Shown: one piece after another, positions 7,932 through 38,950 of the stretch
Layout: each line of letters opens with the position of its first letter
Numbering within the stretch: the stretch's first letter is position 1
NCBI GenBank assembly: GCA_902505605.1
Contig: CABWKN010000119.1
Coordinates: 1-44,788, forward strand
From: Candidatus Guanabacterium sedimentis
Lineage (GTDB): Bacteria > Acidobacteriota > B3-B38 > Guanabaribacteriales > B3-B38
Direction of reading: 5' to 3'
DNA length: 44,788 nucleotides
Made by a program: the position numbers and the translations under genes
The notes under the pieces: model-generated
The model's input: only the letters and a program-made list of their open reading frames with translations
What the model was told of the DNA's origin: nothing
Databases searched by the model: none

Positions 7932-10337
7932 TTAAAGCTCCTTTTGGGTGTATTCTATCTCTTCCATGGTGACTCCTTTTCGGAGCTCTTCCATCTCTTT
8001 CATTACCTTGGCGAATTTTAAGCCCTCAGCAGCGCTAATCCACTCCAGTTGTAAGCGCTCTGGACGAACACCCTTCTTTTCCAGCTTGTCCCACAGTTTC
8101 TCCACCCGCTTCTGGGTCCAGCGATTGGCACTTATATAATGGCAGTCGGCGAAATGGCAACCGGATACCAGAACAATGGGAGCACCCAGCTTAAATGCAT
8201 GAAGTACAAACTTCTCATCCACCCTACCACTGCACATAGTCCTTATAATTCTGACACTGGGGGGATACTGAAGCCGGGAGATACCGGCAAAGTCTCCCCC
8301 TGCATAGGAGCACCAATTGCAGGCAAAAACTACCACTTTATCCTGAGGGTTCTCCCCCAGTGCGCTTTCAATCTGACTAATAATCTGTTGGTCGGTAAAG
8401 TGGCGCATGGTAATGGCACCAAAGGTGCATTCAGCCGCACAGGCGCCACAGCCGTGGCAGCTAGCTTCGATAACCCGAGCAGGGAGCTTCTTCTCCTTGT
8501 CGAATTCAATGGCGTGGTAGGGGCACACCCGAGCGCAGATACCACAAGCCTTACATAACTCCTCATCTATATGAGAGGTAATCGCCTCAATGGTGATCTT
8601 GCCGGCGCTCATTAGAATGTTTGCCCTGGATGCCGCTGCTGAAGCCTGGGTGACGCTATCTTTGATGTCTTTGGGAGCCTCAGCACAGCCGGCAAAGAAG
8701 ACCCCTTTAGTGGGAGCATCTACCGGTAGTAGCTTGGGGTGTGCTTCCATGAAGAAGCCATCCGAGGTTTGCGAGAGGGTCAGGAGCTGCCGGATAATGG
8801 GACTGTCGGAGTTGGGAACCAGTCCCACGGAGAGGATGACCATGTCCACCTCATGCTCCACTACCTTACCTTCATTCCTATCTTCTGACAGAAGGATGAG
8901 GTTCTTGGCCTCCGGGTCTTCTCTTATGTCGCCAGGGATACCTCTAATATACATTACTCCTGCAGCTTTGCTCCGTTTATAAAGGTCTTCAAATCCCTTG
9001 CCGAAAGCTCTTATATCCATATAGAAGACCTTTATCTCTACCTCGGGCCAGTGGTCCTTTATGAGAAGGGAGTCCTTGACGGTGTTCATGCAGCAAATAT
9101 TGCTGCAATAAGGGTTTCCCCTCTTTTCCGAACGGGAGCCGATGCACTGGATAAAGGCGACTCTTTTAGGCAGCTGCCAGTCAGTGGGTCGGATGAGATG
9201 CCCTTCGGTGGGTCCGCCGGAGTTTATCAGCCTTTCAAACTCCAAGCTGGTGATTACATTCTCAAAGCGGGTGTAGCCGAACTCATCGAGCTCGGTGGGG
9301 TCATAGACATCCATCCCGGTGGCCACAATAACGGTTCCTACCCTAAACTCCACCTCCTTATCCTGCATATCGTAGTCGATGCACTTCAAGTCGCAAGCCT
9401 CCGCACATTTTCCACAGGCAATAGGGTTGTTGCCCAAGCAGTCCTCTAAATTTAATACAAAAGCGGAGGGCACTGCCTGAGGGAAGGGTTGATAAATCGC
9501 CTTACGCGTGGAAAGACCAAGGTCAAACTCGTTGGGCTTGGTAACCGGGCAGACTTCAAGACAATCGCTACAAGCAGTGCACTCCTTCTCGTCCACATAA
9601 CGGGCTTTGCGAAGGACCTTTATCCTGAAGTTCCCTATATACCCCTGGACATCTACCACTTCGCTGAGGGTCAGAAGCTCGATCCGGGGATGTCGACCGA
9701 CATCCGTCATCTTCGGTCCCAGTATTCAGATGGAACAGTCCATGGTGGGAAAAGTCTTGTCTATCTGAGCCATTGTCCCACCAATGCTGGGCTTTTTCTC
9801 CACCAGATATACCTGATACCCTGCATTGGCGAGGTCGAGGGAAGCCTGTATGCCGGCAATCCCACCACCAATAACCAGGGCGCTTTTGTCTACCGAGACC
9901 TCTTTCTCAATCTGAGGCTGGAGGTAGCGGGCACGAGACACCCCCATTTTTACCATATCTTTGGCTTTTTCGGTCGCTTTTTCGGGCTCGTGCATGTGGA
10001 CCCAGCTGCAGTGTTCTCTCAGGTTCACCATCTCCAGCAGGTAAGGATTGAGCCCAACTTCCTGGCAAGCGGCTCGGAAGGTTGGTTCATGCATTAAGGG
10101 GGTACAGGAGGCAACCACCACCCGGTTGAGATTGTGTTCTTTTATATGGTCTTTGATTGTTTGCTGCCCGGGCTCCGAGCAGGTATAGCGATTGGTGTTA
10201 ACAACTACTACATCCTTTAGCCCACGGGCATACTCAGCCACCGCCTCGCAATCGACGGTTCCTGAGATGTTAAGCCCACAATAGCAGACGAAAACACCAA
10301 TTCTTAGCTCTTCAGTTTCAGCCCTTTCGATTTCCAA
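7932..10337 (-). CDS. Selenocysteine-containing HdrA-MvhD fusion (in-frame TGA)
   Basis: HdrA-like flavoprotein fused to an MvhD-type domain, 801 residues if the TGA at 9726-9728 is read as selenocysteine 204. Domains in order: N-terminal HdrA domain (IGVFVCYCGLN, about 12), Rossmann FAD site ALVIGGGIAGIQASLDLA (about 154), the loop MDCSI-U-ILGPKM, a ferredoxin insert (CTACSDCLEVCP), the rest of the FAD fold, two C-terminal 4Fe-4S motifs (CKACGICARVCP, CHGCGACAAEC), and MvhD (FACNWCSYAGGD, MCSGRVD, GCHFADCHY, about 660-801). The start is TTG 10337, preceded by a strong GGGAGGT that overlaps the stop of the upstream gene. HdrA carries the flavin that splits electrons in heterodisulfide reductases; MvhD passes electrons in. 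The HdrA plus MvhD layout also recalls QmoB, but no qmoC or aprAB is nearby. An ordinary gene finder would split this gene in two. Confidence 0.9.
9688..9728 (-). promoter_or_regulatory. Selenocysteine UGA and SECIS-like hairpin in hdrA-mvhD
   Basis: On the mRNA the UGA (9728-9726) is followed after 20 bases by GGAUGUC-GGUC-GACAUCC (9705-9688), a perfect 7-bp stem with a GGUC loop. Bacterial SECIS elements lie inside the coding sequence just after the UGA, and the E. coli fdhF element also has a GGUC loop. Here the loop begins 28 bases after the UGA. No bulged U is seen, unlike fdhF. A second possible pairing, GACCGA with UCGGUC, overlaps it. Confidence 0.8.
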
Positions 10338-11958: not shown

Positions 11959-14900
11959 CTATAAAGAGCCAGTCAGCATGGCTTCGACCATTTTATCAAT
12001 CTGCCGGTCGGTGAAATGCCGAGCCACTATAGCCCCGGTGGGGCAGAGCGAGGCACAGGTGCCACACCCCTTGCATAAGGCTTCATTTATGCGGGAGACA
12101 TAGTTGCCTTCAGGCGTCTCCACCAGCTCGGGGGCATGGAACTGGCACACCTCCTGGCAGTTGCCGCAGCCCCGGCAGAGGTCCTCTCGCACTACGCAGG
12201 TAGTTGGTTCCAGCTCAACAAATTCCTTGGAAGCCATCACCGCCATCTTACTCGCGGCTGCCGAAGCCTGAGCTACAGAATCGGTGATGTCCTTTGGCGA
12301 TTGAGCACAACCACATATATAAATCCCCTCGGTGGAAGTCTCTACCGGACCCAGCTTGGAGTGTCTCTCCATAAAAAATCCGTCCAGGCTGCGAGGGATC
12401 TTCAACTGTTCTTGAATTTGTTCCGCATCTACCTTTCGCGCTACCATTCCTACCGATAACACTACCAAGTCCACCGGGAGCTCTATTTCCTGATTTAAGG
12501 GGGAGAACATCCACTTGATGCTGGTCGCCCTCCCCTTTCCTATAACCTGAGGAGGATGCTCTTCATCGTATCTTAGGAAGATGACACCCTCACCTCTCGC
12601 CTTGCGGTACAGCTCTTCCACTCCTTTGCCGAATGCAATGATATCGCGATAGAGAATCACCACCTGGGCACCTTTCTCTCTAAGCTTCAATGCCTGTTTG
12701 ATAGCCACCGAACAGCAATAGCGGGAGCAATCGGGGTTGCCATCCTTTTTATTTCGTGAGCCGACACATTGAACAAAGACGATGTTTTTCGATTCTTTGT
12801 TATTGCGGGTCAGCTCGGGAGAGTCCTCCTTCAGGAGCCTCTCCATTTCCATATTAGTCATAACATTAGGAAAGGAGCTGTAGCCGAATTTCCCGGTAGG
12901 GTTAAAGAGGTCGGAGCCTATGGCTACCGCAATGGAGCCCACCTGTAGAGTGCTCGTCTTTTCTTGATGCTGAAGAGATTGCAGGGTGACTTCGAAATTA
13001 CCTACAAAGCCGTTGACCTCTTTTACCATGGTGGAGGTCAAGATATTCACCCCAGCGCTCTCCAGCTGCTTTACCTTTTCACTGATGAGCTGCTGCCCAT
13101 CATAATTTTCTTCATAGAAGGTGGACAATTCCTTAACTCTTCCCCCAAGTCTCTCTTCCTTCTCCACCAGGGTTACTTTATGCCCCAGGCGTGCCAGGTC
13201 GACAGAAGCCTGCATGCCCGTAATTCCCCCCCCTACTACCAGCATATCAGGGTTCATCGGCATTTGCCTCGATTCTAAGGGCTGCAACAAATGGCAGCGA
13301 GCCACCGCCATTCTAACTAAGTCTTTCGCTTTTTCGGTTGCTTCTTTGGGAGTGGAAGCATGCACCCAGGAGCACTGGTCTCTGATGTTGGCCATTTCAA
13401 AGAGGTATGGATTCAGGCCGGCTAAACCACAGGTCTCTCTGAAGATGGGCTCATGGGTTCTGGGAGTACAGGAGGCCACCACCACCCGGTTGAGCTGATA
13501 TTCTTTTATCTTGTACTGAATCTCCCTTTGGCTGTCATCAGAGCAGGCAAACAGCATACGGGCGGAGTAAACCACCCCAGGGAGGGTTTGTGCGAACTGA
13601 TTGACCTCTTCCACATCTACCACTCCGGCAATATTTATCCCACAATGGCATACGAAGACTCCTATTCGGGGCTCGCCAGAGGTATCTATAGGCTCTACCT
13701 CTATCTCTTTTTGGGCAATCCGGGCTCCCTCCATATGGGTAAGGGCTTTTACCGCCGTCGCCGTTCCCCAGGCTACCGAGTCGGTAATATCGCGAGGGCT
13801 ACTGCAAGAGCCGGCTATATATACCCCCGGCCGTGTTGCCTCTGTGGGATTGTGGAAATCCCTCTCTTTAAAGAAACCATAGCTATCAACCTCAATGCCC
13901 AAAATCCGAGCCACCTCCTTCGCACCTGTCGAAGGGATAGCGGCGGTGGAGAGGACAACAATATCGGCTGCTAGAGGCTCAATCCTGTTGGTCTCAGTGT
14001 TCTCCACCATTATTGTAAGGCTTCTGGTTAGAGGGTCCTCTTCCACCCGGGCAGGTCGTCCCCTTAAGAACTTGACCCCTTCTACCTCCTCTGCCCGAAG
14101 GAACAGCTCCTGGAACCCCTTACCATAGGTTCGAAGGTCCATATACAATATGGAGATCTCCTTTATATCCGGGTCGTGGGTTTTAGCCAGCAGCGCACAC
14201 TTTATTGAGTTAGTGCAACAATAGACCGAGCAATAAGGATAACCATCTCCCTTAGCCATACGGGAACCAACACATTGGATAAAAACGATTTTACGAGGTG
14301 TTTTAGAATCGGAGGGACGGATAATATGCCCTCCGGTAGGACCGGTGGCGCTGAGTAAACGCTCAAATTCCAGTCCGGTAAGCACGTTTGCATATTGCCC
14401 GTAACCATAATTTTTTAAAGCAGTAGGCTTAAGCTGTGAAAAACCGGTAGCAACAACGATCGCTCCTACATTGATGGTTCTCTCTTCGTCATTTTGGTTG
14501 TAGTCTATAGCTTGAGCTTCACAAACTCTAGCACAGAGCCCGCATTTCCCCTTAAGAATCATAGTGCAGTGTTCAGGATCTATGGTATACACTGGGGGTA
14601 CCCCCTGAGGGAAGTAAATATAGATGGCTTTTCTTTTTGCCAAGCCTAATTCGAAATCATCGGAGACCTTAATGGGGCATTTCTCAGCACAGATTCCGCA
14701 GGCAGTGCAGACATCCTCTTTTACATAGCGAGCTTTTTTCAGATATTGTACCCGAAAATTCCCCTCTTCTCCTTCAACTTTGGTTGGCTGACATAGAGTT
14801 AACAGCTCTATATTGGGATGTCGACCGACATCCAGCATTCGGGGTCCAAGGATTCAGGTAGCGCAATCCATAGAGGGGAAGGTTTTATCAAGCTGAGCCA

Positions 14901-29185: not shown

Positions 29186-29795
29186 ATGAAGGTGTTAGTC
29201 GTCTATTATTCCATGCACAGCCATGTCCATCGTCTGGCATAGGCCATTGCCAAAGGTGCCAAGGAAGTTGAAGGTGCAACGGTAGACATGCGCCGTGTTT
29301 CAGAAACATTGCCCAGAAGTGCTCGTCAAAACAGGAGCTCTTGAAGCCCAGAAAGCTTATTCTCATATCCCTATATGTAAAGTAGATGAGTTAGCTTCCG
29401 CCGATGCCATTATTTTTGGCACACTAACACGATTCGGCAATATGTATGGACAGATGCGACAGTTCCTCGATGCTACTGGCTAGCTATGGGCTACGGGAGC
29501 ACTGGTAGGTAAAGTGGGAAGTGCATTTACTGGCTCCGCCACGCAGTACGGAGGGCAAGAGTCCACCATACTCAGTTTCCATATTACACTTCTCCATCAT
29601 GGAATAATCATTGTAGGCCTGCCATATACTTTTCAAGGTCAAATGCGTATCGACGAGATTACCGGAGGGTCTCCCTATGGAGCAGCGACTCTTGCAGGTC
29701 CCAGGGGTGAGCGTATGCCCAGCGAAAATGAGTTGGAAGCAGCTCGGTTTAAGGGAAAACATGTCGCCATGATAGCTTCCAAGCTCGCAAAATAG
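29186..29795 (+). pseudogene. Decayed WrbA-type NAD(P)H:quinone oxidoreductase
   Basis: The reading begins MKVLVVYYSMHSHVHRLA after a strong purine-rich site (AAGGGGGGGT), then meets TAG at 29240-29242. The same frame continues through [20 protein letters not shown] and shifts at about 29312, where one extra base is needed to continue into [12 protein letters not shown]. The second frame reads [26 protein letters not shown], meets a TAG at 29481-29483, and continues [17 protein letters not shown] to a normal WrbA end. Two stops and a frameshift in one flavodoxin-fold gene indicate decay. A short insertion-sequence or recent loss is not seen nearby. Confidence 0.85.
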
Positions 29796-30399
29796 CAAAA
29801 TTAATGGAACACCTCTTTCAAGCCATCAGATAATAATTAGTAGAGCAGTAGTTCTTGTCTCCAGCACTACGCTTAGTGAGCGTTATTCTGATGCATGTAG
29901 TGTCTGCTTCGGCAGCGGTGATTTGGTTTTTTCAGGATATAATTATCGTAGCTATCACTTGGTTAGGCTCTGGGATATTCGTGACTATGATGTCATTCTA
30001 AGAGGGATTTCTGAGAGAGAATGAAGCAGATTATATCCTGTTCCCGGCGGACCGATGTCCCCGCATTCTATCTTCCCTCACTTATGACATGTTTAAAAAT
30101 TGAATGTCCTTTTAAGGAGACATAATTCATCCTAATTGTACAGAAACTCAACGGAACAGGAGCACCTCATTTTTAGCTAAGTATAAGGTAAATAGAATAT
30201 CCGGAAGACCCTTTGAGCAGTAAAGGTAACTCCATTATTTTCATAGAATTATAGCAATAAAGCTAACCCTATGGCGATTCCCAAAAAACTCACCTTAGGT
30301 GAATGGGACTCCATCCGCAGTAAGCCGGCATAAATATTGCGGTAAATCATTTTTTAAAAAAGAGAAAAACCTCATTAAACATCCTCAAAAGGAGGCGAG
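29796..30399. other. 604-base gap without a supported gene
   Basis: No RNA gene or promoter is recognised. A frame on the plus strand stays open for about 64 codons (roughly 29827-30024, ending TGA) but has no start codon and no recognisable family. A near-palindrome, TCACCTTAGGTGA, lies at about 30290. The stretch may hold remains of decayed genes beside the broken wrbA. Confidence 0.4.
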
Positions 30400-30405
30400 G
30401 TGTTC

Positions 30406-32694
30406 ATGAAAAGAGAAAATATTGGTAAACAGGGAGGGAAGCTCCTTTTAGCCTTGTTTATCATTATGTTCTTTGTAGGGGCATCTTATCCGAAAGGGGA
30501 TGACGAGGGGAAGAACTATGTGAGAATATGCTTCACAGAGAACGGAGTGACCTTGCAGCGAGCGACAGGGATGGCGCCTGAGAACCTCGTAACCAACGCT
30601 CTCCTTAAGCAGAAAAATAAGGTAGATTTCAAAAAACTAAGAAATGACCTCCCCGAAAAATATAAGAGGTGGCTTGACGAAGTAGATTATATAATTTCCA
30701 ATTACGAACTTAAAGGATTCCTCCAGCTCAAGACCGACAAACATAAGGATTTGTTTATCGAGAGATTCTGGCTGGCAAGAGACCCTACTCCGGGAACCAA
30801 GAGGAATGAATTCAAAGATGAGCATTACCAAAGATGGGCATATGCCAATAAATTCCTTGGAAGGGGAACCTACCTGCCGGGGTGGAAGACCGACCGGGGG
30901 AGAGTCTACATCACTTTAGGAAAGCCTGCCACCATAACCCAATTTGCGAGTAGCTTTGAAACCCATCGAATGGAACTGTGGCACTATATGGGTAATACCC
31001 AGTACAACCTTCCCCCGAGCTTTTATCTCATATTCTATTGGAGGGATGGTCATCCCCCCTTTAGATTGTACCGCCCCCTAACCGATTCCCCTTATCGGTT
31101 GCTCAGGTCTACTCCAGAGGTCCAGCCCCTTGACGAGGAGCTTCAATTTGAGTACCTCAGCAGGCTGGGATATAACGTATCTCATGCCGCATGGAGCTAT
31201 CTGCCCAGCGCCGGGGGGTATGGGACCTATGGGTATAGGGCGGCAATGACAGAATCTGAACGACTGATAGGCTACATATGGAGAGCTGGCAACTTAGTGG
31301 AGGAGAGTAGAAAAGAGTATGTAGACGCCACCCTGGCAGGAAAAGGCGAGGTGGAGGTGGAGATATTCTTCAAAACTATTACCATAGGGAAGCTTGTCAG
31401 ATGATTTGTCTCATCCGCCGGTAACATTTTCTACGATATAGCCATTGAGATTAAGCCTGAGGATTTGCAGGTCGGTAAATATGATGACCAATACTTCATC
31501 AACATGGACCTCAGGGGCACCGTCAAGGATGATGACAAGAAGGTCATCGATTTCTTTTCTCACAGCCTTGAGGATATATATCTTGATGAAGCTAAATTTG
31601 AGCAAATTCGCTATCGCCCCATGATGCTGATGTTTAGAAGGGCTTTGGTTCCCGGCAACTTCCACCTCGACCTGGTTCTGGGGAATAATGTGAGCAAGGA
31701 GATTGCCTCCACCTCAGCAGAGCTTGTCATTCCTCCCTTCTCTAATGAGAAGCCTCTGATAGGCAATTTATACCTGGCCAAGAAAATAACCCGCATCTCA
31801 GCGGGGGAAAAGCCAAACCAGAAGATAAAGGCTTTCCAGTTTGGAGACCTGGTTATCACTCCCTCAGTGGATAACATATTTTCCCAGGAAGAGGCATTGA
31901 TAGCCTTCTTTCAACTCTTCTTCCCCAATGAGATAACCCGCCAGCAGGCGACCAACTATCTCCTCTGCTACGAGATCTCCCAGAGAGGGGAGCTGGTGAG
32001 CAGAATGGAGGAGTCGCTGGCAGAATTGGTAAAGAGCAACGCCCTGGTGGTTACCCTTTATCAGCGGTTAGGGCTGGAGGGGTTAAGGGTGGGGGAAGCC
32101 TCTCTGGATATCTTCTTGAAAAACATGACCGCTGGAGAGAGGGTGGTAGAAACCTCCGCCTGGGCTGATCTTGAGCTAGTCTCCCAGACAGAGCCCGAGT
32201 GCTGGAGCTACAATCAGGTTATTGTCCATTACAACAGCCCCCAGTACGATTACTTCCGGGCTAAGCGCTATATGAACACCGGAAACTATGAGGCTGCCGA
32301 AAGGGGGCTTAAGGCTGTTCTTAGTAAGAATCCCGACCACCTCCAAGCCAATCTCGACTACTGCACACTTCTCCTATTAAACCAGAAATACGACGAACTG
32401 ATAGAGCAAGCTAGTTCCCTTCTGGTAGCCTCCCCACGCCAACCTAATCTGTTAGAGCTCATCGGTCAGGCATACATATATAAAAAAGATTATCAGGAAG
32501 CCAGGCGCTATTACGAAGAACTCAGGTTGGTGCTACCCAAATTCCCTCCCGTTCTGAACTACCTGGCGTATATCTATTACAATTTGAACCAGAGAGAGAA
32601 AGCCATCCAGCTGCTGGAGGAATCCCTTAAGTTAGACCCCAGTCAAAAGGATATTCAAGTGAGGTTGAAAAAAATCAAATCGGAAAGTCGATAA
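30406..32694 (+). CDS. GWxTD-domain protein with C-terminal TPRs, interrupted by TGA
   Basis: One continuous frame of 762 codons with a TGA at codon 333 (31402-31404). The N-terminus has a signal peptide (KLLLALFIIMFFVGASYPKG). The GWxTD domain spans about 85-200, with RWLDEVDYIIS, FIERFWLARDPTPGT and the name-giving PGWKTDRGRVYITLGKP. After the TGA the frame at once resumes FVSSAGNIFYDIAIEI and ends in about four TPR repeats (AKRYMNTGNYEAAERGL, IYYNLNQREKAIQLLEES). Function of GWxTD proteins is unknown; this one should be exported. ATG 30406 has AGGAGG ten bases upstream; GTG 30400 is an alternative. No SECIS-like hairpin follows this TGA, so a TGG-to-TGA nonsense change or sequencing error is more likely than selenocysteine. 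Confidence 0.75.
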
Positions 32695-32777
32695 CCGATA
32701 TCCTTTCCTTCTATATTTCCTGGTTGATAAAGTGCATAAAAACTGCTATGTCAGTAGGTAAGATAGGTTAGCAGAAG

Positions 32778-37762: not shown

Positions 37763-38950
37763 TTACAAAATATGAAGCTCATCCGGGAAGACGGTCAGCT
37801 TCTTTGGTCTATCTTCGGTTATCAACCATGTGTTCTCTATTCCCACTCCACCCTTCTGAGGAAAGAATATCTTGGGCTCTACTGCCAGAGTCATTCCGGG
37901 CTGCAGCTCCAGATCTGGCTTTTCGGCAATAAGGGGTAGCTCGTCAATCTCACATCCTATTCCGTGAGCTACAAACTTGACCTGGTTATCACCATAGCCC
38001 ATAAAATAGTCCCGATAAGGTGACTGTTCAACCTTTTTCATTACCGTCTGATAAATGTGGCGTGAGCTATTTCCGGGGCGGAGCAGCTCGGTCATCTTCT
38101 CCTGCACCTCCAGCGCAAAGCGATGAGCCTTTAGTAAATCTTCGGCGAGATACCCCAGAGCGTAAATCCTCGTCTTATCTATAAGATATCCATTATAACC
38201 CACCACCATATCAACCATAATAGGTTCCCCTTCTTGTATCGGCTTCACCCCTGCTCCCTGGGGAACTGCCACTGAGAGCCCCATCCCGCCATCAGGTCCT
38301 TCAAATGGAACCGGATAGGACATATTAGCTCCCGAAATCACCGCTCCATAATAGAGCTCCAGGTCCCACCTATGAGCTCTCACCAACCCCTGATGACCCT
38401 TTTTTCTAAACCTTGCTTCGAGTTCTGCAGATAAATCTATCTCTCGCATTCCTGGCTGAAGAAGGGAGGGGATTTCGGAGTACACAGCCCTTGCTATCTC
38501 TGCCGCCTTCTGCATCTGCTCAATTTCAAAACTTGATTTAATTGTCCGCAGCTTTCTGCTCAACTCCGAGCCATTGGCGAGCTCAGCTTCAGAAAATAGC
38601 TCCTTCAATCGAAGATAGGGCCGAACAGGCAATACATCCAGCTCTAAATAGAGCTTAGTGGGAGGCTTTTCCCCTAAGGTGGACAGAGCACGTGGAAGCT
38701 CTGCCAGGCGAGTGTAAGGAACAATATTAACCAGAGGAGACTCTATCTGAGCTCTGGTTAAGCTCCTTTTCACCAACAGGAGAGGCTCACCTTTTCGGGG
38801 GACGAACAAAACCGAGTTCTGCATCGTCCCCGAGAAATAGAAGAGGTTGACATTTTGTAAGATAAGGAAGCCATCGACATTCGCAGAGTTAAGCTCTTTC
38901 TGGAGCCTACCTATGCGATGGTAGACCTCCTCCTTTGGCGTCAGCAGCAC
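37763..38950 (-). CDS. M24 family metallopeptidase (Xaa-Pro aminopeptidase-like)
   Basis: A 395-residue pita-bread peptidase: an N-terminal creatinase-type domain, then the M24 domain. Candidate metal ligands are the Asp residues of MVDMVVGYNGYLIDKTR, His of FVAHGIGCEIDELP, Glu of AVEPKIFF and Glu of GIENTWL. It removes an N-terminal residue next to proline from peptides. The start is GTG 38950 with GAGGCGGAG close upstream. It follows the asparaginase-family gene by 95 bases on the same strand, so the two may be co-transcribed. Confidence 0.9.
   Translation of the reverse strand: MLLTPKEEVYHRIGRLQKELNSANVDGFLILQNVNLFYFSGTMQNSVLFVPRKGEPLLLVKRSLTRAQIESPLVNIVPYTRLAELPRALSTLGEKPPTKLYLELDVLPVRPYLRLKELFSEAELANGSELSRKLRTIKSSFEIEQMQKAAEIARAVYSEIPSLLQPGMREIDLSAELEARFRKKGHQGLVRAHRWDLELYYGAVISGANMSYPVPFEGPDGGMGLSVAVPQGAGVKPIQEGEPIMVDMVVGYNGYLIDKTRIYALGYLAEDLLKAHRFALEVQEKMTELLRPGNSSRHIYQTVMKKVEQSPYRDYFMGYGDNQVKFVAHGIGCEIDELPLIAEKPDLELQPGMTLAVEPKIFFPQKGGVGIENTWLITEDRPKKLTVFPDELHIL

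Follow-up and report, generated by a model that had tools for sequence, protein, structure and literature searches.

A probable recent nonsense mutation interrupts a GWxTD/TPR gene in Candidatus Guanabacterium sedimentis

We find that the in-frame TGA which interrupts a GWxTD/TPR gene in a 44,788-nucleotide contig of Candidatus Guanabacterium sedimentis (CABWKN010000119.1, the whole of which is termed the window here) is quite probably genuine and reflects a fairly recent nonsense mutation, G to A, of the Trp codon TGG in one weakly constrained member of a multi-copy GWxTD family. We favor this reading because the closest relatives carry TGG at the site, no SECIS follows the stop, RF2 is present, dN/dS is raised in the gene and its orthologue, and the adjoining wrbA gene is broken as well. 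An earlier sequence-based note (the original prediction) had left nonsense mutation, readthrough and base error side by side as explanations; recent nonsense mutation now has the best support of the three.

By frame reading, the TGA is the sole break in an otherwise open frame (30406–32691; Table 1). The claim that this frame is coding on both sides of the stop holds, in that the GWxTD domain lies before it (E 3.5e-13; 50.1 bits versus a cut-off of 26.9), TPR repeats lie after it, and the orthologue runs through unbroken. A G-to-A change would turn codon 333 from TGG into TGA, and ribosomes would then stop after 332 residues, comprising a signal-like N-terminus (judged by eye), the GWxTD domain and part of the middle region. 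The TPR part would not be made, and the gene would be in early decay, as wrbA just upstream seems to be. We infer that living cells of the population carry the mutation and that its product lacks function. Most likely this copy of the gene is dispensable, and an ordinary nonsense mutation is the simplest reading.

Table 1. Positions, in the window, of the interrupted gene, its domains and the broken gene upstream
Feature	Position	Strand	Detail
GWxTD/TPR gene, interrupted at codon 333	30406..32694	+	762 codons plus TAA
In-frame TGA; TGG in orthologue and three nearest paralogues	31402..31404	+	homologue alignment
GWxTD domain (PF20094), before stop	30616..30999	+	residues 71-198 of 332-residue part
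TPR repeats, after stop	32461..32655	+	TPR_16 residues 353-413, TPR_19 residues 360-417 of 429-residue part
wrbA pseudogene, directly upstream	29186..29795	+	in-frame TAG at 29240 and 29481; 2-base deletion near 29318 vs congener

Homologues were sought in 60 genomes, the window's own included, and a match to the gene was seen in 55 of them. Among the matches listed, the top one outside the window is 89% identical over residues 1–762 and forms one open frame; this orthologue, G002:C31, lies on contig NJBL01000037.1 of a congener, a candidate division B38 MAG. When the window protein was aligned with 15 homologues, the residue at codon 333 was Trp in five, Pro in three, Thr, Leu and Tyr in two each, and Val in one, with neither Cys nor a stop in any of the 15. 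All five Trp homologues (the orthologue, the three nearest paralogues and G003:C17) use TGG. The closest relatives support the original prediction's proposal that a Trp codon had changed from TGG to TGA. No internal stop is present in the orthologue or in any of the three nearest paralogues, and their sense codon is one substitution away from TGA.

Other GWxTD rows in our search were also flagged for TGA or TAA, which raised the idea of a shared recoding. We rejected it, since six of the seven other flagged stops are terminal ones caught by the match ends: the eight flagged rows among the matches listed comprise these six, the TGA of the window and one internal TAA at another position in a distant homologue. 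With the remaining stops being terminal or located elsewhere, the TGA is no conserved feature. In line with this, a check of 17 sequences (the window gene and 16 homologues) found two that are broken internally, namely the window gene and the distant homologue with the TAA, G059:C13 (22538–24514), where the stop falls at codon 409 of the match.

Constraint on the gene is weak. Between the window gene and its orthologue, dS is 0.100, dN 0.050 and dN/dS (omega) 0.50, compared with dS of 0.36–0.61 and omega of 0.11–0.18 for six neighboring stretches, i.e. five downstream genes and the wrbA fragment, with a seventh, the gene at 37763, left out as misframed. In a codon model of five sequences, omega was 0.69 on the window branch versus 0.25 elsewhere (LRT 13.9, p 2e-4), and a value of 1 was not rejected for the window branch. 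The trend is the same on both sides of the stop, with window-branch omega of 0.93 before it and 0.62 after it. However, omega is also raised, to 0.45, on the sister branch, and a model in which window and sister share a value of 0.56 fits equally well (step from the pair model to three ratios, p 0.66). Hence weak constraint is a property of the pair, with omega of about 0.6 versus 0.25 for gene and orthologue, and no proof that the window gene is a pseudogene. We had also polarized individual sites, giving 17 synonymous and 51 non-synonymous changes on the window branch, 11 and 16 on the sister branch, and 38 unresolved sites. These counts were dropped in favor of the codon model, as they are biased toward non-synonymous changes; distant outgroups leave synonymous sites unresolved more often.

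These data also contain points that count against a nonsense mutation. The raised omega cannot be assigned to the window branch, and the sister gene is unbroken. Moreover, lesions are scarcer than neutral decay would make them: if the whole window branch had been fully neutral, 4.2–5.7 stops would be expected, whereas one is observed (P of one or fewer, 0.075–0.022), and there is no indel inside the gene relative to the orthologue. One stop and no indel imply that the frame was held until recently, and that the break, if it is a break at all, is recent. Readthrough would explain the kept frame too.

The neighborhood offers further context. The gene directly upstream is a wrbA pseudogene, named from the intact copy in congener G001; the gene is intact in congener G002 as well. 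We surveyed lesions using 57 ORFs of at least 120 aa taken from six congener stretches, with many genes counted twice (once per congener), and 48 of these matched the window at >60% identity. Eleven rows were flagged: two for wrbA, one for the GWxTD gene, two for second matches to the other hdrA copy, one for an ORF that runs antisense to a real gene, and five others whose single stop either lies immediately beyond the ORF of the window or is that ORF's regular terminus. The genes with internal lesions in this survey are therefore wrbA and the GWxTD gene, which adjoin each other.

When 30067–32616 is divided into 17 bins of 150 bases, window and G002 differ by 1.3–8.7% in 16 of them and by 14.7% in the remaining one, versus 10.7–27.3% in the flanking bins shown. 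The block that is less diverged than its flanks spans roughly 30100–32700, with edges near the borders of the GWxTD module. It is likely, judging from this lower divergence, that the GWxTD module was exchanged between lineages, by recombination or transfer, after the flanks had diverged. In G001, the same place is occupied by a whole DUF1848 gene together with a protein that matches Peptidase_M1, and in the window the module is flanked on both sides by remnants that resemble the beginning of this DUF1848 gene (29994–30099 and 32694–32742).

Second to a nonsense mutation, we rank the possibility that the TGA is a consensus base error, or else a variant of some strain or minority within the population that the draft represents, most cells then having an intact gene. 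The draft comprises 159 contigs and is 80.8% complete, the frame is otherwise kept with no indel relative to the orthologue, and the lesions in adjoining wrbA make a locally poor stretch thinkable. But a weakly constrained gene is expected to take a nonsense mutation anyway, and the ordinary omega values of the five downstream genes and the wrbA fragment give no sign of many random errors. On balance, we consider an error or variant unlikely.

A less probable alternative is that the stop is read through. In such a scheme, a near-cognate tRNA-Trp would place Trp at the UGA at a low level, giving little full-length protein and possibly serving as down-regulation. Trp is indeed the residue in the closest relatives, and the frame beyond the stop is intact. 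Belinky et al. (2021; PMC7918605) describe TGA as leaky, E. coli and Salmonella inserting Trp there at a very low frequency, and the dN/dS of 0.73 given for an example family is near the value seen here. Low-level readthrough might keep down the dose of a GWxTD/TPR protein that was exchanged recently, while the frame beyond the stop stays open, a scheme to which we give only a slim chance. Against functional readthrough stand the presence of RF2 (C33; 515 bits, above cut-off), the use of UGA as the terminal stop of C22, a sister GWxTD gene in the same genome, and the lack of clear constraint beyond the stop, where window-branch omega does not exclude 1. In addition, congeners G001 and G002 each have an ordinary tRNA-Trp(CCA) with an anticodon stem of at least 5 bp as drawn by ARAGORN, unlike the 4-bp-stem tRNA-Trp which PMC13092985 describes as the readthrough type. 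The tRNA-Trp point rests on these congeners, as the window genome's own tRNA-Trp is absent among 21 tRNA matches in the incomplete draft. Altogether, functional readthrough seems improbable. Genome-wide recoding of UGA as Trp is likewise unlikely, because RF2 is present, UGA ends the sister gene and the congener tRNA-Trp is of the ordinary CCA type. If readthrough did prove true, the gene would add one more leaky UGA among wild bacteria.

Selenocysteine insertion deserves consideration, since the original prediction stated that the genome appears to use UGA for Sec elsewhere. The presence of tRNA-Sec (anticodon TCA) and SelB supports that statement, and UGA very likely does encode Sec in this genome. 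The window itself contains two hdrA genes which resemble the GWxTD gene in having an in-frame UGA (9726–9728 and 14854–14856, minus strand), and these served as positive controls for the hairpin comparison. Both hdrA UGAs follow a Cys motif, are kept in G001 and G002, and are followed by an identical GGATGTCGGTCGACATCC hairpin, which begins 23 bases beyond the UGA's first base; for the parts after the UGA, the best NCBIfam match is in both cases HdrA2 (NF040770), below its cut-off. From these sequence features, both are good Sec candidates. The UGA of the GWxTD gene has none of these attributes. Past it we saw no SECIS-like hairpin, the stretch 31390–31470 giving a folding z of +0.75 against shuffles (154 of 200 folded equally well or better), which bears out the earlier remark that nothing like the hdrA hairpins is present. 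Cys, moreover, occupies the site in none of the 15 aligned homologues. Despite the tRNA-Sec and SelB encoded in the genome, Sec insertion at this codon is thus hardly credible. The GWxTD gene is of use mainly as a negative control: where a genome very likely uses UGA for Sec, an in-frame UGA that lacks a hairpin, and at which the closest relatives have Trp, is more aptly termed a nonsense mutation than recoding.

That the locus comprises two separate genes, one for a GWxTD and one for a TPR protein, is very unlikely: each half does have its own domain, but a split into two proteins at codon 333, which the original prediction had named as grounds for refutation, occurs in none of the 16 homologues checked, the orthologue is unbroken, and by eye no in-frame ATG, GTG or TTG codon just past the TGA has a well-placed ribosome binding site. 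The earliest such codon is indeed the TTG at 31465 that had been named as the next start, the earliest ATG being at 31504. It had been described as having no ribosome binding site; this needs qualifying, in that a GAGG can be read 2 bases 5′ of the TTG, a spacing too short for a usual site. The ATG that overlaps the stop (ATGA, 31401–31404) opens another frame, of 7 codons only, so that coupled re-initiation there would not yield the C-terminal part.

PMC7918605 describes bacterial genes, young pseudogenes among them, in which a single nonsense substitution has created an in-frame stop, and the window gene is like them in having one sense-to-stop change in an otherwise open frame. According to that study, most such stops do not persist for long, and dN/dS is raised yet below 1, a further likeness to the window gene. 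The artefact filter given there was that the stop be common to relatives; the stop in the window is found in one genome only. As for the protein itself, a literature search for the GWxTD domain found no papers. Both it and its orthologue carry PF20094 at the same place and C-terminal TPR, as in GWxTD/TPR proteins (TIGR04514/PF20094), and the orthologue also matches TIGR04514 above cut-off. The window gene differs from other members by the stop at codon 333.

Finally, relatives of the gene are present within the same genome. Among the matches listed there is a paralogue, C92, that is 72% identical, and GWxTD-domain places elsewhere in the genome number seven in all; these could supply redundancy. 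The leader of the interrupted gene, with its first 69 codons (30089–30600), resembles the 5′ regions of other genes in these genomes, at 64–67% identity in protein and 68–73% in DNA. This likeness is seen with G000:C61, G002:C74 and G001:C372, and extends to the leader only in G002:C101, hinting that GWxTD genes may be mosaic.
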